64,000 bases of DNA from Rhizobium sp. TH2. GTDB taxonomy: Bacteria; Pseudomonadota; Alphaproteobacteria; Rhizobiales; Rhizobiaceae. The stretch covers positions 1,984,001 through 2,048,000 of the forward strand of contig NZ_CP062231.1 of assembly GCF_024707525.1 (NCBI RefSeq), written 5' to 3'. How positions within the stretch are numbered: position 1 is the stretch's first letter; every line of letters starts with the position of its first letter. This document shows positions 6,122 to 51,238 of this stretch, piece after piece. Made by a program: the position numbers and the translations under genes. Under the pieces are notes generated by a model. It saw only the letters and a list, made by a program, of their open reading frames with translations, made no database searches and was not told where the DNA came from.

Positions 6122-8191
6122 ATGGCTTTCAAGACAAGGCTTCTTGCCACGGCCGCGATACCCTTCATGGCGCTTGCGGGCTACAGCCTGCCGGTGTCGG
6201 CCGCGATGATCAAGCCGGCTGCCGAAATCCAGACTCAAAGCCCATTCATCGCCGTCCAGAGCGAAGAGGAAGAAGTAGTTCCGAAGAAGCGCCGCAAACA
6301 GCAGGAACAGCAAGACGGCGCTCAGGAGCAGGTAACTGATCCGGCCAATGCCGAGGCTGTTGAAGAGCCGGTTCGCAAGAATCGCAAGCAGCGCAAGCAG
6401 GCCGAAGAGCAGCAGACGCAGGAAATGCAGCCGGCCGATAACGCCGAGGCTGTTGAAGAGCCCGTTCGCAAGAACCGCAAGAAGCAAAAGCAGGCTGAAG
6501 AGCAGCAGACGCAGGAAATGCAGCCGGCCGATAATGCCGAGGCCGTAGAAGAGCCGGTTCGCAAGAACCGCAAGAAGCAGCAGCAGACTGAAGAACAGCA
6601 GGCGGACGAGGCCCAGCCGGCGGACAATGCCGAGGCTGTCGAAGAGCCTGTTCGCAAGAACCGCAAGAAGCAGAAGCAAGCCGAAGAACAGCAGATGGAC
6701 GAAGCGCAGCCTGCGGACAACGCCGAGGCTGTGGAAGAACCCGTTCGCAAGAATCGGAAGAAGCAGCAGGCCGATCAGGGTGTGTCCGACGAGGACATCG
6801 TCAATCAGAGCAAGCGCAAGAAGCAGGCCCAGCAGGATGACCAGACTGAAGAGCAGAACGCTGCCGACACCGAGGAACCGGTGCGCAAGAACCGCAAGAA
6901 GCAGCAGCAGGCTGACGACGCCCAGCAGGCCGAGGACGGGCAGCAGGACGCCAAGCCTGCCGGCGAAGTGACCGACGAAGACATCGTCAACATGAGCAAG
7001 GACCGCAAGAAGAAGCGCGACCGTGCCCAGGCCGAGACGCCCGAAGCGATCGAGAAGCGCGAGGAAGTCGCCAAGGATCCGTCCAAGACCACCGACACCG
7101 TCGTCCTGCCGGTCGAGAATGGCGCTGCCGTGCTCGACAGCGACAAAGACGCCGACAACAGCGGTGCCAACCGCGAGCGCCGCAAGCGCCAGCGTGAGCA
7201 GGTCGAGGAAGTCCGCGTGCCGAAGTCCGACAAGGATGCGCAGAACACCGACGTCAAGATCGTCATCAAGAACGACATCGACGTCAAGGGTGAGCGCATC
7301 GACGACTTCCGTGGCTACCGCCGCGATGACGGCAAGATCATCGGCAAGGGCGACGACGTGCGCGTGGTCTTCGACCTCGACGGCAAGATCGTCATCCGAA
7401 GCGATGATCGCAGACGCCTCGGCCGGGATGGAGATATCCGCTACGAGCGTCTCCGCGACGACCGCATCAAGGAAATCGTCATTCGTCCGAACGGCGACCG
7501 GATCGTCACCATCCGCAACCGTTGGGGTGAGATCATCCGCCGCTCGCGCATCGACAACCGCGACGTCGAGATCGTGATCTTCTATTCACCCGATCTCGAG
7601 CGCGGCCGCGATCGCCTCTACCTGCGCGACGCCGGCGACGAACTGCCGCCGATGCGTCTCGGCATCCCGGTCGAAGACTATATTGTCGACGTGTCCAGCG
7701 ATCCGGACCGCGACTATGACGAGTTCCTCTCCGAGCCGCCGGTCGAGCAGGTCGAGCGTGTCTATTCGGTCGACGAGGTGAAGAACTCCGCGCGTATCCG
7801 CGACAAGGTGCGCCGTATCGACCTCGATACGATCACCTTCGACACGGCCAGCGCCGAGATTTCACGAGACCAGGCCAAATCCCTGAGGAAGGTGGCGGAG
7901 GCGATCGGTGCCATCCTCGACCGCAATCCGGGCGAGACCTTCCTGATCGAGGGCCATACCGATGCCGTGGGTTCCGACGAGTCCAACCTCGTCCTGTCCG
8001 ACGAGCGCGCGGAATCGGTGGCAAGCGTGCTGTCGGAACTCTTCGAGATACCGGCCGAGAACCTTGTGACCCAGGGTTACGGCGAGCGTTACCTCAAGAT
8101 CGATACCGATGAGGACGAGCGCGAGAACCGCCGCGTCACCATCCGCCGCATCACGCCGCTGGTACGTCCGGCGGAAGTGTCCGAGAACTGA
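6122..8191 (+). CDS. OmpA-family outer membrane/peptidoglycan-associated protein with a charged repeat region
   Basis: A 689-residue protein. A Sec signal peptide (MAFKTRLLATAAIPFMALAG, cleavage near SLPVSAA) is followed by an extremely charged, Gln/Glu/Lys-rich region. This region has five tandem 31-residue units built on DNAEAVEEPVRKNRKKQ (residues 76-215) and further degenerate copies. A basic/acidic middle domain (residues 330-520) rich in RDDRIKEIVIRPNG-like strands follows. The C-terminal 115 residues are an OmpA peptidoglycan-binding domain (IEGHTDAVGSDESN, LVLSDERAESVASVLSE, TQGYGERYLK). It probably links the outer envelope to peptidoglycan. The repeats are expected to be disordered or to span the periplasm. 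A strong terminator follows. Confidence 0.85.
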   Translation: MAFKTRLLATAAIPFMALAGYSLPVSAAMIKPAAEIQTQSPFIAVQSEEEEVVPKKRRKQQEQQDGAQEQVTDPANAEAVEEPVRKNRKQRKQAEEQQTQEMQPADNAEAVEEPVRKNRKKQKQAEEQQTQEMQPADNAEAVEEPVRKNRKKQQQTEEQQADEAQPADNAEAVEEPVRKNRKKQKQAEEQQMDEAQPADNAEAVEEPVRKNRKKQQADQGVSDEDIVNQSKRKKQAQQDDQTEEQNAADTEEPVRKNRKKQQQADDAQQAEDGQQDAKPAGEVTDEDIVNMSKDRKKKRDRAQAETPEAIEKREEVAKDPSKTTDTVVLPVENGAAVLDSDKDADNSGANRERRKRQREQVEEVRVPKSDKDAQNTDVKIVIKNDIDVKGERIDDFRGYRRDDGKIIGKGDDVRVVFDLDGKIVIRSDDRRRLGRDGDIRYERLRDDRIKEIVIRPNGDRIVTIRNRWGEIIRRSRIDNRDVEIVIFYSPDLERGRDRLYLRDAGDELPPMRLGIPVEDYIVDVSSDPDRDYDEFLSEPPVEQVERVYSVDEVKNSARIRDKVRRIDLDTITFDTASAEISRDQAKSLRKVAEAIGAILDRNPGETFLIEGHTDAVGSDESNLVLSDERAESVASVLSELFEIPAENLVTQGYGERYLKIDTDEDERENRRVTIRRITPLVRPAEVSEN
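6347..6775 (+). repeat. 93-bp in-frame tandem repeat array in the OmpA-family gene
   Basis: Copies begin near 6347, 6440, 6533, 6626 and 6719; the last is truncated. Each encodes a 31-residue unit NAEAVEEPVRKNRK followed by Gln/Glu-rich text. A decayed copy (EEPVRKNRKKQQQADD) recurs at about 6868. Copies differ by synonymous and conservative changes, so the array is not a recent slippage product. Confidence 0.9.
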
Positions 8192-10652: not shown

Positions 10653-10665
10653 TTGTGCAGTGCAA
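10653..10665. promoter_or_regulatory. Shared 13-base motif upstream of the first DUF1127 gene
   Basis: TTGTGCAGTGCAA, containing the TGCA-N-TGCA dyad, lies about 85 bases upstream of the start. The identical 13 bases occur at 11686-11698, upstream of the sRNA locus. It may be a regulator binding site; the factor is unknown. Confidence 0.4.
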
Positions 10666-11123: not shown

Positions 11124-11444
11124 TTGCATTTTCCTTTCGATCTGGCTTCCGGTCCGGATTGACCACCGCCTCTTGAATTCGATGATTGGAAGATAGTATT
11201 GCGCTGCAGCATTTACCAGCGCATTGACGGCAGTGCACCTATGCATTCCGTGCAAATCACTGCCTTAAGTCTCTATAATATTTAACAAAAAATTCACAGT
11301 TCGGCCGCTTTCGCGGCAGTATTGCGGCGAACTTGCGGCAATTGCCCAACGGTTAGGCACATCAGCGATATCGCATATTCGGCGGGAAGATCTTTGGCTG
11401 ACGCCGGGGCATGATCTGGGCGTCGCAAGGCTTGGCCCAGACTC

Positions 11445-11562
11445 AAAACGCCCACCGGGGGAGGAGATCCGGCGGGCGTCGTTGAGTATGACTGACAACT
11501 GGGAGGAGGAGTGTTGCCAGTCAAATCGGAGAAGCGCTGGGAGGAGGAGTGCGCGTTCTCCG
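11445..11562 (-). ncRNA. Three-hairpin anti-Shine-Dalgarno sRNA, alpha-r14 (NfeR1) type
   Basis: On the minus strand three consecutive hairpins each expose a CU-rich loop. Hairpin 1 (11561-11528) has stem GGAGAA..GCGC/GCGC..TTCTCC. Hairpin 2 (11523-11489) has an 11-bp stem TGACTGGCAAC/GTTGTCAGTCA with one G-U. Hairpin 3 (11479-11448) has a GC-rich stem followed by TTTTG and serves as terminator. Loops 1 and 2 are identical (ACTCCTCCTCCCA); loop 3 reads ATCTCCTCCC. This matches the rhizobial alpha-r14 family (NfeR1/Smr14C2), trans-acting RNAs whose aSD loops pair with ribosome binding sites. The 5' end is estimated from the first stem. It lies upstream of tRNA-Leu and tig. Confidence 0.85.
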
Positions 11563-11609
11563 AATATCTTACGCTCTTCCGAGCGGGCTCTTCATCGGGT
11601 CTCCCCGGC

Positions 11610-11633
11610 AGCGGCTCGCCAAGGCCGCTTTTT
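11610..11633 (+). terminator. Plus-strand terminator-like hairpin facing away from the sRNA
   Basis: AGCGGC (11610-11615) pairs with GCCGCT (11624-11629), with an eight-base loop and then TTTTT on the plus strand. No plus-strand gene precedes it, so it could end an antisense transcript across the aSD sRNA, or be fortuitous. Confidence 0.4.
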
Positions 11634-11685
11634 GTCGATCAGCTTGCGCCTTTCGATGAGACCAATCTAGTACGACTTTTCCGAT

Positions 11686-11698
11686 TTGTGCAGTGCAA
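11686..11698. promoter_or_regulatory. Second copy of the TTGTGCAGTGCAA motif
   Basis: Identical in 13 of 13 bases to 10653-10665, about 125 bases upstream of the predicted sRNA 5' end on the minus strand. Confidence 0.4.
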
Positions 11699-11783
11699 TA
11701 TAGACATGGTCTCCATGCATCTGCCGCATGGCTCGGATAGGGCGTCTGCGATCAATTCATATATTCACTTTGACGCAAATAAG

Positions 11784-11799
11784 TTAATGAAATATTAAC
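11784..11799. promoter_or_regulatory. Candidate CtrA-type box upstream of tRNA-Leu/tig
   Basis: TTAA, seven bases, TTAAC, matching the CtrA full-site consensus. It lies in an AT-rich stretch 130 bases before tRNA-Leu. Motif evidence only. Confidence 0.35.
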
Positions 11800-11927
11800 A
11801 TCCAGCGGCTAGCGCGAGGCTTTCGCCGATTCCAGTCGCGTAATCCGACAAGATTTTCCTTTGCATACAACAGGGGCGGTGCTAATGACGGCCCGCTTCG
11901 ACCGGCTCGCCGGTCGATTGCATGGAT

Positions 11928-12012
11928 GCGGGTGTGGCGGAATTGGTAGACGCACCAGATTTAGGTTCTGGCGCCGAGAGGCGTGGGGGTTCGAGTCCCT
12001 TCACCCGCACCA
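11928..12012 (+). tRNA. tRNA-Leu (anticodon UAG)
   Basis: A complete 85-base cloverleaf. The acceptor stem GCGGGTG pairs with CACCCGC, followed by discriminator A and an encoded CCA. The D arm is GGCGGAATTGGTAGACGC. The anticodon stem CCAGA/TCTGG carries loop TTTAGGT with anticodon TAG. The long variable arm and T loop (GGTTCGAGTCC) are typical of class II tRNA-Leu. It precedes tig and decodes CUA and related leucine codons. Confidence 0.97.
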
Positions 12013-12263: not shown

Positions 12264-13760
12264 ATGCAGGTTATTGAAACGCTCGCTGAAGGGCTGAAGC
12301 GCGAACTGAAGGTCGTTATTCCGGCCAAGGACATGGAAGCTCGGATGAACGAGCGCCTCCAGGAGGTCAAGGACCGCGTCCGTATCAACGGCTTCCGTCC
12401 AGGCAAGGTACCGCCTGCGCATCTCAAGAAAATGTACGGCAAATCGGTTATGGCCGAGCTCGTCAACGAGATCATCCAGAAGCAGCCGACGGAAATCCTC
12501 TCCGGCCGCGGCGAGAAGTCCGCGACCCAGCCCGAAATCGCGATGACCGAGGACGAGAAGCAGGCCGACAAGATCCTCAACGCCCAGGCCGATTTCGAAT
12601 TCACGCTCTCCTATGAAGTGATCCCGGCGATCGAACTCAAGGATGTGAGCGGCATCAAGGTGACCCGCGAAGTCGTCGAAATCCCGGAATCGGAAGTCGA
12701 TGAGCAGATCGCCAAGATCGCCGAGAGCACCCGCTCCTACGAAGAAAAGAAGGGCAAGGCTGCCGACGGCGACCGCGTCACCATGGATTACGAAGGCAAG
12801 GTCGATGGCGTTCCCTTCGAAGGCGGCAAGGATTCCAACGCCGAACTCGTGATCGGCTCCGGCCGCTTCATCCCGGGCTTCGAAGACCAGCTCGTTGGCC
12901 TCAAGGCTGGCGACGAAAAGACCATCACCGTGACCTTCCCCGCCGACTATCCGGCCGCGAACCTCGCCGGCAAGGACGCCACCTTCGACGTCTCCGTCAA
13001 GGCGATTGCCGCCCCGGACAAGCTCGAGATCAACGATGAACTCGCTTCCAAGCTCGGCCTCGAATCCGAAGCCAAGCTCCGCGAAATCGTCCGTGGCCAG
13101 ATCGAGAACCAGTTCGGCACGATGACCCGCCAGAAGCTGAAGCGCCAGCTGCTCGACCAGATGGACCAGCTCTACGCCTTCGACACGCCGCAGAAGCTCG
13201 TCGACGCCGAGTTCGAACAGATATGGCGCCAGATCAACACCGATCTCGCCCAGTCCGGCAAGACCTTCGAGGATGAAGACACGACCGAGGAAAAGGCGCG
13301 TGATGAGTATCGCAAGCTCGCCGAACGCCGCGTCAAGCTCGGCCTCGTTCTCTCCGAAATCGGCGAGAAGGGTGGCGTCGAGGTTTCCGAGGACGAGATG
13401 AACAAGGCGCTTTACGCCCAAATCTCGCAGTTCCCGGGCCAGGAAAAGGAAATCATCGAATATTTCCGCAACACGCCGGGCGCGATCGCGGGCCTGCGCG
13501 CGCCGATCTTCGAAGAAAAGGTCGTCGATCAGCTCCTGACCGAGATCCAGGTCACCGACAAGACCGTGACCAAGGAAGAGCTGCTGGCTGACGAGGAAGG
13601 CGACGCAAAGCCTGCCAAGGAAGCCAAATCAGCGCCGAAGAAGAAGGCCGCTGCCAAGACCGAGGCGAAGGCTGACGACGCTGCTGAAGCAGCTGCGGAC
13701 GATGCTGCACCCAAGAAGAAAGCCGCCCCGAAGAAGAAGGCTGCCGACAAGGCCGAGTGA
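12264..13760 (+). CDS. tig: Trigger factor
   Basis: A 498-residue ribosome-associated chaperone. The ribosome-docking signature GFRPGKVP is at residues 43-50. The FKBP-type prolyl isomerase domain ([20 protein letters not shown], then [20 protein letters not shown]) spans about residues 165-245, and the C-terminal chaperone arms follow. The last 60 residues are a low-complexity Ala/Lys tail ([20 protein letters not shown]), common in rhizobial trigger factors. AAAGGTAGGAAC precedes the ATG. It binds nascent chains at the exit tunnel. The gene is monocistronic, with a terminator downstream. Confidence 0.97.
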
Positions 13761-13866: not shown

Positions 13867-15234
13867 TCAGAGCATAAAATCTCCGACATCGAGCGTCGCA
13901 ACTGTTTCGCCTTCGATCAGTAGCAGATCGCCCTTTCCGAAATCGATCGCGACCCCTCCCAGACCATCCGACATCTTGCCGAGAAGCTTCATAAAGTTCT
14001 GGATATCGAAGCTCCGGAGATTGATCACATCGGCGCCGATCCCGAAGTCGGTGATCGTGTCATGGTTCGAATTCTTGCGGAAAACGAATGTGTCGTCGCC
14101 GCCGTTGCCGGTCAGGTCGTTGTCGGCCGCATTGCCGGTGAGGGTGTCGCCGCCGCCGCCGCCCACGGCATTCTCGATCAGCGATTCCATCTTACCCCGA
14201 TAGAGCAACGCATTGTAGATATTGCCACTCGCCATGTGCTGGCCTGGGCCATCAAAGTTGCCGAGGTCGGCGAGCTGCGACTGGCTGAAGAGCGACGATT
14301 TTCCGGGCCGCAGATCGACCACCACCCTGTCGTCATAGTCACTGAGATCGTAGGTATCTTCCCCGCCGCCATCCCAGATCGTCGCGAAGATGCGATTGAC
14401 CGCACTGCCATTGACGTTGGGCTCGATGCCCACCGCGCCGTTCACAAGCGTATTGCCGCTGTCGGGCGCCCATTTGTAGACGGTGGCACCGTTGTTGGTC
14501 GAGAAATCGGCGCCATACATGTGCTGCAGCGCTGCGATATCGAGCATCATGAAGGTTTGCGGATAGCTGGAAATCTCGTTGGTCAGGAACGAGTGATGGA
14601 CACCAGCATAGCTGTGATACGTCATCACCGAATATTCGTGCGAGTCGTACCGGCCGTGGAGTTCGGTCTTGATCTTGTCGTAGCTTTCGGCCTTGTGAGG
14701 ATGCTTGAGGCCCAGAGCGTGGCCTGTTTCATGCATCATGACGGCAAACTCATAACTGCCGATCTCCGCGTCGGGATAGAAGCTGTCCGTCTTGGTGCGG
14801 CCGAGCCAGACATCTCCGCCAACGGAAGCGTTCCCGGGATAGTTGGCATAGGCGGTTGGATTGGCCTCGCTCGATTCGGCATAGCGCAGCACCGCCGTCC
14901 TGTCGTCGGCGCCTTCCGAGATGTTCAGGTTCGTAAGGCCCTCAACGCAGAAACCGTCATTGGCAATGACGCCATCGCTTTCCGCATCCAGAATGCGCCG
15001 CACGGCGATCTCGATCTCGCTCGAGACGACGTGGAAATTCTTGTTCTTCTCCGGCCCGTAGCTGTAATCGTTCGCGGCATCCGGAAAGGCATAGGTGATA
15101 TCAGCGGTTTTCCATTCGAATCCCGAGAGCACGCCGTCGGTGAACTCGTTGCCGGATTTTGAAACCTGCCCTGCGGCCGTGCGCGCCGCCGCGTGGGACT
15201 GATGCTCGACGGTTTGCCTGTCCGTTCCGGTCAT
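13867..15234 (-). CDS. Serralysin-like M10 metallopeptidase with C-terminal RTX domain
   Basis: A 455-residue secreted protease candidate. The zinc motif HETGHALGLKHP (HExxHxxGxxHP) is at about residues 165-176, and the Met-turn SVMTYHSYAG lies about 35 residues later. A C-terminal beta-roll with GNAADNDLTGNGGDDTFVF nonapeptide-like repeats (residues 350-390) ends in a short hydrophobic tail. There is no Sec signal, and family members leave by type I secretion using the C-terminus; no T1SS genes lie in this window. GAGGAAAATCCC precedes the ATG. It is divergent from the caspase gene with 242 bases between them. Confidence 0.88.
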   Translation of the reverse strand: MTGTDRQTVEHQSHAAARTAAGQVSKSGNEFTDGVLSGFEWKTADITYAFPDAANDYSYGPEKNKNFHVVSSEIEIAVRRILDAESDGVIANDGFCVEGLTNLNISEGADDRTAVLRYAESSEANPTAYANYPGNASVGGDVWLGRTKTDSFYPDAEIGSYEFAVMMHETGHALGLKHPHKAESYDKIKTELHGRYDSHEYSVMTYHSYAGVHHSFLTNEISSYPQTFMMLDIAALQHMYGADFSTNNGATVYKWAPDSGNTLVNGAVGIEPNVNGSAVNRIFATIWDGGGEDTYDLSDYDDRVVVDLRPGKSSLFSQSQLADLGNFDGPGQHMASGNIYNALLYRGKMESLIENAVGGGGGDTLTGNAADNDLTGNGGDDTFVFRKNSNHDTITDFGIGADVINLRSFDIQNFMKLLGKMSDGLGGVAIDFGKGDLLLIEGETVATLDVGDFML

Positions 15235-15476: not shown

Positions 15477-17051
15477 ATGCCGATCTGCCTGCGTTTTCTG
15501 ATGCTTGGCCTGATTCTCGCCGTGCCCGGTCTGGCTCAGGCGGCCAATTCCTTCGCACTGGTGATCGGCATCAACGAGTACAAGGCTGTGCCGAGCCTCG
15601 ATGGCGCCCGCAACGATGCCGAGGATATTGCCACGGCCCTCAGCCGCAAAGGCACGACACGAATCATATCGCTCATGGACCGGCAGGCGACCAAGCAGAA
15701 TATCGTCAACGCCTGGACGACGCTTCTCAATGATGCGCGCGAGGGCGACACGATCTTCGTGACCTATGCCGGCCACGGCGCGCAGATCAAGCAGATCATC
15801 CAGGGCGACGAGAACGACGGGCTGGACGAGTTCTGGGTTCTGCCGGGCTTCGACCCCAAGAACCTCAAGGAGACGTGGAAGGAATCGGTCTTCGACAATG
15901 AATTGCATCAATGGTTCACCGAGGCGGGCACGCGCGGCATCAAGGTCGTCTTTGTCTCCGATTCGTGCCACGCAGGCGGCATGAACCGGGCGGTGAGGGG
16001 CAAGCTCCGCTATGTCGAGTTCGGCGACAGCCGCGTGCTCGGCGAATTGCTGGCCATGGTCAGCGGCAGCGCCGGCAGTAGTGTCGTAACCGAGCCCGAG
16101 TCGCGCACCCCGGCAAACGTGACCATGCTGGCTGCAACCTCGGAAGCGCTTCCGGTGCCGGAGGTGGTGATCGAAGGTCGCTCGCGCGGCGCGCTCTCCT
16201 GGGCTTTCGCACGGGCGGTGGAGGGCAAGGCCGACCGCAATGCCGACGGCACCGTCACCCGAATCGAGCTTGAGGACTATGTGCTGGCAACGGTGAGGAT
16301 GCGCTCCGAATCATTGCAGACGCCCGTATTCACCCCGGTGGCCGCCCGTGACGCGAACGAGGCGCTGTTCGGCGTCACGCAGATGCCGGAAATGGCGTCT
16401 TCGTCGGTCCGTCCGGCCGAAAAGACCGGTCGCCGGCCGATGGTCCGGGCGCGCGAACTGGGATTCGACCCGTTGCTGCCGCTCACCGTCAAGGGCACGG
16501 ACGTGATGCCTGAAGACATCGAGAAAGGCGTACATACCTATGAATGGGATGCTGCGACCGGCCTGTTCCGCTCGCCGAATGGCGACATCGTCGCCGAGAA
16601 AGTCAGCCCTTTCACGGTCAATGACATCGTTTCCAAGTTCATTCTGCTCGATTTCCTGAAAGCCATCGCCTCGCAGAATCCGGGCCGGATTATCGTGTCC
16701 CCGGAGCAGCAGATATATCTGGCCAATGAGCATATCAAATTCGATGCGATTCGCGGTGACTATAAGAATATGTTGGTCTTCAATCTCGCCAACACCGGTG
16801 AGATACAGTTCTTGGACATGGTCCTGAATGGAGAGCCGCAGTTTAAGACGCCCCTGAAGGAAATGAAAATTGTCGAACCGTTCGGTTCGGATCACCTTGT
16901 CGTCATTTCTTCTAACGAATCGCTGGAGGCGATCGGACGAATACTGGAGCGTGGCGTCGCACCGAAAGAATTACTGGCCTCTCTTTCACAGAGGATAGAT
17001 GGTACTGATTCGTCTATTGGCATACTTCCACTTTACACAAGAGAAAATTAG
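15477..17051 (+). CDS. Exported caspase-family (C14) protein with DUF4384-like C-terminus
   Basis: A 524-residue protein with a Sec signal peptide (LRFLMLGLILAVPGLAQAAN). The caspase-fold domain covers residues 24-270: SFALVIGINEYKAVPSLDGA at its start, the catalytic His in FVTYAGHGAQI (about residue 100) and the catalytic Cys in FVSDSCHAGGM (about residue 164), so the dyad is intact. The last 190 residues (LVFNLANTGEIQF, EPFGSDHLVVISSNESLEA) resemble DUF4384, often found behind bacterial caspase domains. Its periplasmic or surface location is unusual for a caspase-like protease. The gene's 3' end is more AT-rich than its start. Substrate unknown; it sits between a protease and a giant repeat protein. 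Confidence 0.88.
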   Translation: MPICLRFLMLGLILAVPGLAQAANSFALVIGINEYKAVPSLDGARNDAEDIATALSRKGTTRIISLMDRQATKQNIVNAWTTLLNDAREGDTIFVTYAGHGAQIKQIIQGDENDGLDEFWVLPGFDPKNLKETWKESVFDNELHQWFTEAGTRGIKVVFVSDSCHAGGMNRAVRGKLRYVEFGDSRVLGELLAMVSGSAGSSVVTEPESRTPANVTMLAATSEALPVPEVVIEGRSRGALSWAFARAVEGKADRNADGTVTRIELEDYVLATVRMRSESLQTPVFTPVAARDANEALFGVTQMPEMASSSVRPAEKTGRRPMVRARELGFDPLLPLTVKGTDVMPEDIEKGVHTYEWDAATGLFRSPNGDIVAEKVSPFTVNDIVSKFILLDFLKAIASQNPGRIIVSPEQQIYLANEHIKFDAIRGDYKNMLVFNLANTGEIQFLDMVLNGEPQFKTPLKEMKIVEPFGSDHLVVISSNESLEAIGRILERGVAPKELLASLSQRIDGTDSSIGILPLYTREN

Positions 17052-50940: not shown

Positions 50941-51026
50941 CAAAAAAAGCCTCGCTCTGTTCTTGAGCGAGGCTAGTGAGACGCATCGTCAACAGGCGAG
51001 GGAGGAGACACCTGCAGCCACTCACA
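50941..51026 (-). ncRNA. Two-hairpin sRNA candidate with a UCUCCUCCCU loop (alpha-r8/MmgR-like)
   Basis: On the minus strand CAGGTG (51014-51009) pairs with CGCCTG (50998-50993) around loop TCTCCTCCCT, inside an outer GTGAG/CTCAC stem (51025-51021 with 50980-50976). A ten-bp stem (50948-50957 with 50965-50974) and TTTTTTTG follow. No gene fits this region, and the DUF922 gene ends 213 bases upstream. Short rhizobial RNAs with a single CUCCUCCC hairpin plus terminator (MmgR, alpha-r8) look like this. I assign the family from memory, with moderate confidence. Confidence 0.65.
50948..50974 (-). terminator. Strong minus-strand terminator
   Basis: A ten-bp AGCCTCGCTC/GAGCGAGGCT stem with a seven-base loop, followed by seven Ts on the minus strand. 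It ends the sRNA candidate and may also serve the ferredoxin gene on the other side. Confidence 0.9.
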
Positions 51027-51238
51027 TGCGCCTTGGGAAACCACAGAAAACCAAACTACCAAGAAACACTCGAACTGCTACTCGCGATTGATATGAGAAC
51101 GCTAATTCAGCGACACCGCAAGTGCAATGGGCGAATATAAAGGGTCAATTCACAGGATTGGGCGCAGGTTTGGCACAAGGTTGGCGGCTCGTTGCGGGAA
51201 AAACACGCAAATCATCCGGAAATGCCGGGGGCGCCGGA

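Follow-up and report, generated by a model that had tools for sequence, protein, structure and literature searches.

A probable SmelC398-type anti-Shine-Dalgarno sRNA with a predicted pseudoknot leader beside tRNA-Leu and tig in Rhizobium sp. TH2

The minus strand beside tRNA-Leu and tig in Rhizobium sp. TH2 carries an sRNA gene of the ar14 family, which most likely is the counterpart of SmelC398 from S. meliloti. The account that we regard as probable as a whole is that of a SmelC398-type ar14 sRNA activated by a regulator of the LsrB/VtlR type, whose RNA of about 216 nt would begin with a pseudoknot and continue with loops that block Shine-Dalgarno sequences. For the window, by which is meant the whole 64-kb stretch of DNA that was analyzed, the family, the structure of the body, the identity of the copy, the promoter boxes, and the covariation of the pseudoknot across relatives were all read from sequence; the experimental support, namely the activation of NfeR1 by LsrB and the pairing of the NfeR1 loops with a target, comes from S. 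meliloti (PMC10746234). Earlier work had established the sRNA family with its loops and mechanism and its proximity to DUF1127 genes. Within the open papers and Rfam searched, three points are new: assigning this copy to SmelC398, the vacant NfeR1 slot, and a covarying pseudoknot in the leader.

The sRNA body, its loops, and their putative targets

A sequence-only reading of this DNA had described three minus-strand hairpins with CU-rich loops, had placed them in the alpha-r14 family, and had named a covariance-model search as the way to check this. The Rfam ar14 model (RF02344) matched with 111 bits, against a gathering cut-off of 58.8, over model positions 1-123 of 123, and the fold returned the three hairpins at the same place (Table 1); thus, both the family and the hairpins were confirmed. 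Each hairpin holds an unpaired CCUCCUCCC-type loop on a divergent stem, as in ar14, and the third loop reads CUCCUCCC. The first two loops are indeed the same 13 bases on unrelated stems, and the third hairpin is, as had been proposed and as is the case in ar14, a Rho-independent terminator with a strong stem and a TTTT tail. The body folds with -59.1 kcal/mol, compared with -30.0 +/- 3.7 for its shuffles (z -7.8), and none of the 200 shuffles was equally stable. A generic scan of positions 11300-11930 listed no sigma-70 promoter and no minus-strand terminator, because the promoter CTGCAC-N17-CTAGAT and the short TTTT tail both fall below the rules of the scan.

Table 1. Features of the sRNA locus (positions in the window)
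Feature	Position	Strand	Basis
ar14 sRNA body, with a CUCCUCC anti-Shine-Dalgarno loop in each of its three hairpins	11443..11568	-	RF02344 match and fold
Hairpin 1, 13-base loop 11550-11538, ACTCCTCCTCCCA / ACUCCUCCUCCCA	11526..11563	-	fold and motif search
Hairpin 2, loop 11512-11500, ACTCCTCCTCCCA / ACUCCUCCUCCCA, stem unrelated to hairpin 1	11489..11523	-	fold and motif search
Hairpin 3, terminator, loop 11468-11459, ATCTCCTCCC / AUCUCCUCCC, tail TTTT	11443..11485	-	RF02344 match and fold
5' leader of the predicted primary transcript, predicted TSS ~11658	11569..11658	-	promoter, fold, covariation
Leader hairpin L1, loop 11620-11618 (GGC), 5' side of predicted pseudoknot	11610..11629	-	descriptor and fold
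Leader hairpin L2	11596..11607	-	descriptor and fold
3' side of predicted pseudoknot (GCC)	11586..11588	-	descriptor and partner test
Leader hairpin L3, GGAA tetraloop	11572..11585	-	fold
Predicted alpha-type sigma-70 promoter CTGCAC-N17-CTAGAT	11665..11693	-	sequence; similar -10 in relatives by eye
13-mer TTGCACTGCACAA overlapping the -35 region	11686..11698	-	exact-match genome search
LysR-type (LsrB/VtlR-like) box TGCG-N6-GCAT, -70 to -57 from the predicted TSS	11715..11728	-	motif search
LysR-type box TGCA-N6-GCAT ahead of DUF1127 gene 1	11241..11254	-	sequence; coordinates hand-converted
Other exact copy of TTGCACTGCACAA, ahead of DUF1127 gene 2	10653..10665	-	exact-match genome search
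DUF1127 gene 1, 48 aa	10980..11126	-	PF06568, 54.9 bits
DUF1127 gene 2, 49 aa	10426..10575	-	PF06568, 46.1 bits
tRNA-Leu	11928..12012	+	
tig	12264..13760	+	

The 13-base loop sequence occurs twice in the window, in hairpins 1 and 2 only, where base composition leads one to expect 0.003 occurrences, a count that rules out a chance origin of the loops. All three loops have the 8-mer CTCCTCCC in common, which is found once more in the window, at 51007, and CTCCTCCTCCCA occurs 8 times in the genome, compared with 0 for its reversed control. The claim that the loops are conserved while the stems differ also held, with 98% conservation of the loop motif versus 68% of the stems in 55 first-copy sequences (that of the window among them) that have the full motif triplet, a contrast inflated by the selection of these sequences through the motif itself.

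The genome (6.44 Mb, 4 contigs) possesses six ar14 genes above the cut-off, four on a 5.9-Mb contig and two on a 223-kb contig, and ar14 exceeds the cut-off in 37 of 61 genomes (its own and 60 relatives). The two genes on the plasmid-sized 223-kb contig lie at 99690 and 211693, and one of them starts 36 bases past a DUF1127 match, which is the gene order of Rhodobacter ccaF1-CcsR. Another paralog (C1:3254004-3254141, minus strand, 59 bits) has an extra CTCCTCCTCCCA hairpin just upstream, outside the Rfam match, and is preceded by TGCATCTGGTGCAT, consistent with a LysR box. The window itself holds a second sRNA, Atu_C7 (RF02501, 50.4 bits, cut-off 45; 50944-51084, minus strand), with a hairpin that also displays CUCCUCCC (51007), an anti-Shine-Dalgarno-like loop 39 kb from ar14.

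Silencing of mRNAs through their ribosome binding sites, which the sequence-only reading had suggested, is the mechanism published for the family, and reporter assays with NfeR1 loop mutants demonstrate an mRNA target (PMC10746234). By analogy with NfeR1, the window sRNA would silence in trans through its loops. The same reporter assays make it extremely improbable that the loops mimic the ribosome or 16S rRNA instead of acting on particular mRNAs, an idea that derives its appeal from the presence in the loop of CCUCC, the core of the 16S anti-Shine-Dalgarno sequence (PMC10783764). In the genome, GGGAGGA-N3-9-ATG occurs 185 times and the reversed pattern 16 times, as expected of good ribosome sites. 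From the first 30 GGGAGGA-ATG places, 20 ORFs in Pfam included 9 ABC-transport components (7 binding proteins and 2 permeases), a share that has no matched background and could reflect nothing more than a high frequency of strong ribosome sites in genes of this kind. This share agrees with the class of targets of NfeR1, and the targets are to be taken as putative. AbcR1/AbcR2 resemble the window sRNA in their LsrB-bound promoter and ABC-transporter targets (PMC10746234); however, they form a different RNA family, which is absent from the three Rfam matches of the window.

The trmFO locus and the identity of the copy

The tRNA-Leu and tig genes flank the sRNA as had been claimed. The locus was compared with 80 named trmFO loci, each read over the 2.2 kb upstream of trmFO, of which 60 have ar14 motif arrays and DUF1127 together: all arrays precede DUF1127 in 28, all DUF1127 genes come first in 29, and the two are interleaved in 3. 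The rest comprise 1 locus with arrays only, 13 with DUF1127 only (among them L095, whose motifs, about 76 bases apart, escaped the array rule), and 6 with neither. Two Aurantimonas loci, L133 and L136, have five and four tandem exact anti-Shine-Dalgarno motif units, respectively, behind one DUF1127 gene.

Relatives that keep the flanking genes and lack the loops, which the sequence-only reading had named as evidence against it, do exist. A scan with Rfam of 11 loci devoid of motif arrays found ar14 at the gathering score in none, and 8 of them (L086, L089, L094, L100, L103, L104, L105, and L142) retain DUF1127 and trmFO, with a tRNA present. These array-less loci represent the loss of the entire sRNA gene, not the decay of loops within a retained gene.

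Two arrays are found in 12 of the 28 array-first loci, about 270-320 bp apart from first motif to first motif, the one nearer to tRNA-Leu being copy A and the one adjoining DUF1127 copy B. The window locus has one array only, and examination of 6 loci from the 8 genomes of the same genus revealed no second motif triplet within 1.5 kb; in one of them, L045, two isolated motifs are present in addition. Among the best 45 of 87 ar14 sequences, the window sequence is closer to copy A than to copy B in 12 of 12 loci for which both appear, for example with scores of 64.7 versus 55.1 in L101, 62.9 versus 45.9 in L077, and 63.6 versus 30.1 in L091.

Five Sinorhizobium/Ensifer loci (L077, L078, L101, L102, and L116) connect the copies with named RNAs. 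Their copy B has a LysR box at -74/-75 and TGC-N11-GCA at -117/-119, a spacing that matches the published layout of the NfeR1 promoter, with LsrB at -72 to -60 and NtrC at -101 to -116 (PMC10746234), and so copy B represents the NfeR1 slot. Their copy A has a predicted length of 208-224 nt and is separated from copy B by a gap of 161-168 bases. SmelC398 (sra38 / Sm7), detected in S. meliloti by RNA-seq in 2010, is a 217-nt RNA at 1667766-1667982 on the minus strand, 152 nt upstream of SmelC397/NfeR1 (PMC2873474). Because the layout and lengths of the two copies agree with those of SmelC398 and NfeR1, SmelC398 is the most likely counterpart of the window RNA: the place relative to NfeR1 and the strand order are the same, and 217 nt compare with the 216 predicted here. 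Order, the promoter with its 13-mer and LysR box, the leader, and the length of about 217 nt all fit, with a predicted start site and with SmelC398 known from one table row. The published length leaves room for a leader, and this row mentions neither leader nor pseudoknot (PMC2873474).

The alternative that the window gene is an NfeR1 ortholog, leaderless, 123 nt long, and controlled by LsrB and NtrC, appears quite improbable. NfeR1 (SmelC397, Smr14C2), the founder of alpha-r14, shares with it the ar14 family, three anti-Shine-Dalgarno hairpins with the same loops, a LysR box at about -70, and a sigma-70 promoter, and the window gene is the sole ar14 at the tig/trmFO locus of its genome. However, NfeR1 is 123 nt long and has an NtrC site, whereas for the window copy a leader of about 90 nt is predicted, its box and promoter lie about 90 nt further upstream, no LysR box is found at -72..-60 of the body start, and the minus strand from 11443 to 11928 contains no NtrC-type TGC-N11-GCA. 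The greater closeness to copy A in all 12 loci and the missing second triplet in the same-genus loci point in the same direction. The sequence-only reading, which had named alpha-r14/NfeR1, was therefore right about the family but not about orthology with NfeR1: by promoter, position, and sequence, the window copy is most likely the SmelC398-type neighbor, and the NfeR1 slot is empty in this genome. As only one of six copies in S. meliloti is reliably seen by Northern blot (review, PMC7143759), copy A may be present in low amount.

The leader and its predicted pseudoknot

Ahead of the body lies a predicted leader of about 90 bases, the length of which varies in relatives from almost none (S. 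kostiense, L085) to about 190 bases (L224). In many leaders, the hairpins L1 and L2 are followed by an A-rich linker, by a segment complementary to the L1 loop, and by a third hairpin; the linker is conserved as GGAAAGRCCC, and the third hairpin has a GNRA-type loop in many rows. A descriptor of L1, L2, the linker, and the pairing segment reached a score of at least 36 in 34 of 57 leaders, compared with 4.69 expected from shuffles, and 23 remained below this threshold.

The pseudoknot was also tested on 50 leaders, in which L1 and L2 were picked by stem score alone, blind to the knot, and partners were permuted among leaders. A helix of at least 4 bp between the loop and the 3' segment formed in 24 of 50, compared with 8.7 on average and 19 at most in 1000 permutations, none of which attained the observed mean helix length, with the reservation that related leader sequences are not independent events. 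Two further figures come from alignments (A2 and A3) whose rows were partly selected by the pairing itself and are inflated by this: 42 rows gave 25 helices versus a permuted mean of 8.8 and a maximum of 16, and 13 chosen rows, window excluded, had the helix paired to 94.2%, with one position occupied by U-A in 7 rows and by C-G in 5, and a covariation of 0.269 versus at most 0.090 when slid. Within one genus (g79), three compensated forms occur, GACC:GGUC, GGUC:GACC, and GGCC:GGCC (L204, L205, and L206). In the window the pseudoknot has 3 bp only (GGC:GCC), and in L082 the pairing is broken. The plain fold of the window leader is weak (z -1.46), and a plain minimum-free-energy test of the leaders was mildly positive. 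The covariation across relatives supports the view that the copy-A leader appears to carry an evolutionarily conserved pseudoknot, and the compensatory changes suggest present selection on it.

A weak model built from the 13 rows without the window (R1) gave two matches in the window genome, of which the window leader was the better (23.4 bits, E 0.017; next 18.9), and no match in the same-genus genome G003. Searched with stricter filters in 121 genomes, R1 gave four matches above 60 bits, all of them training rows (L161, L164, L205, and L231). The lower matches inspected (L244-L246 and L248-L255) had no motif downstream; since one of these, at 27.6 bits, outscores the window, diverged copies of the leader may exist elsewhere.

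Other identities for this segment were discarded. Rfam found no family in the leader at E<=1; an 8-codon frame seen by eye in the window is absent from L038 and L045; and a plus-strand terminator at 11610-11629 is the mirror of L1, with a T run that, by eye, is missing in several relatives. For SmelC397, SmelC398, and sra38, no description of a leader was found in the open papers or Rfam.

Since the body folds in the same way with and without the leader, the latter probably influences stability, processing, or the binding of a partner, and it would most likely shield the 5' end or guide processing into the 123-nt body. Its compact pseudoknot, conserved linker, and GNRA-type third hairpin, together with the lack of a match in Rfam, might recall a riboswitch-like aptamer or sensor that controls the stability or folding of the downstream anti-Shine-Dalgarno RNA. 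This seems unlikely, as the loop covaries with its partner and leaves few invariant bases for a ligand, the scan listed no minus-strand terminator, the body is unaffected by the leader, and the leader is lost in L085. A bolder and rather doubtful proposal, to which we give slightly more weight, is that the copy-A leader is a new class of structured RNA, a pseudoknot sensing a ligand or a protein (e.g., a DUF1127 protein under the same control) and switching the anti-Shine-Dalgarno sRNA among stored, processed, and active forms.

Promoter boxes, DUF1127 neighbors, and proposed mode of action

The copy-A promoter consists of the LysR box, 16 bases, TTGCACTGCACAA over the -35 element, and then the -10 element; a second LysR-box match overlaps the first, at 11719-11706. 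Because this LsrB/VtlR-type promoter lies upstream of leader and body, the primary transcript is predicted at about 216 nt, and the 110-125 nt anticipated by the sequence-only reading are unlikely for the primary RNA. Both DUF1127 genes lie downstream of the sRNA on the same strand, with related promoter boxes, and the only two exact copies of TTGCACTGCACAA in the 6.4-Mb genome precede copy A and DUF1127 gene 2.

The pattern TATTGCACTGCACAA was found in 75 of 247 genomes of the family and its reversed form in 0. A reading of 91 of the 92 places showed that an ar14-like motif follows 27 of them (two of which, L152 and L188, are probably due to chance), a DUF1127 gene follows 18, and something else follows 46. 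A LysR box at fixed spacing accompanies 25 of 27 in the ar14 class, 7 of 18 in the DUF1127 class (13 loosely), and 0 of 46 in the others (3 loosely). LsrB activates NfeR1 in S. meliloti (PMC10746234) and VtlR controls DUF1127 genes in Brucella (PMC12595884); the window box may belong to an LsrB/VtlR regulon.

The 13-mer TTGCACTGCACAA may be the site of a separate regulator that is shared with the sRNA promoter. At the places L200, L201, L203, L207, L228, and L229 and their like it also precedes phasin-like genes and, in others, DeoR-type regulators. Longer reads at L200 and L207 match Phasin_2 in Pfam, so that TTGCACTGCACAA also precedes some phasin genes; Pfam gave no match for three short phasin-like pieces. 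The window genome has one PHB_acc_N gene, and a link of TTGCACTGCACAA to the PHB regulator PhaR/AniA is no more than a hunch; a literature search for the motif of PhaR/AniA returned unrelated papers.

The promoters of the DUF1127 class, which have the 13-mer and in many cases the LysR box as well, and the nearly equal counts of the two gene orders at the trmFO loci would suit a different origin of the leader, as the relic of a lost DUF1127 gene: from an ancestral promoter-DUF1127-ar14 order, the coding part would have gone and the 5' UTR would have fused to ar14. This is conceivable, if less probable than not, and it accounts for the origin of the leader but not for the compensatory changes, which suggest present selection.

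A close known arrangement is that of the CcsR1-4/CcaF1 operon and the "cuckoo"/CIN1 RNAs, in which CcsR-like RNAs adjoin a DUF1127 gene (PMC10253847). The window locus, too, has DUF1127 genes beside a CcsR-like CCUCCUCCC RNA. In that operon the DUF1127 gene is followed by four CcsR RNAs under one RpoH promoter, whereas in the window ar14 comes first, with its own predicted promoter, and the DUF1127 genes follow. With the CcsR1 model (RF02791) the window body scores 28.4 bits, below the cut-off of 65.3, and falls outside that family. Elsewhere in the window, a large protein (6122-8191, plus strand) has several near-identical PADNAEAVEEPVRKNRKK-type repeats, and a serralysin-like metalloprotease (M10 C-terminal domain) adjoins a caspase-domain protein (13867-15234, minus strand, and 15477-17051, plus strand).

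Returning to the SmelC398-type account, an LsrB/VtlR-type LysR regulator would activate the promoter, with a start at about 11658. The primary RNA would comprise the 5' pseudoknot leader followed by the three hairpins, whose redundant CUCCUCC-type loops would cover the Shine-Dalgarno regions of many mRNAs, those of ABC transporters included, and block their translation. The small DUF1127 proteins encoded downstream would be under the same regulation and are possible RNA-binding partners. Since the Rhodobacter DUF1127 protein CcaF1, with RNase E, is involved in processing of the ccaF1-CcsR transcript (PMC10253847), the co-regulated DUF1127 proteins are the first candidates for partners.

Their common LysR boxes make it likely that the sRNA and the DUF1127 proteins form one regulon, and DUF1127 proteins thereby become testable as partners of anti-Shine-Dalgarno RNAs outside Rhodobacter. 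Genomes like that of the window have the copy-A form alone at this locus. If copy A is routinely made with its knotted leader, one of the two sinorhizobial sRNAs at this locus would have a regulatory part that has not been studied.
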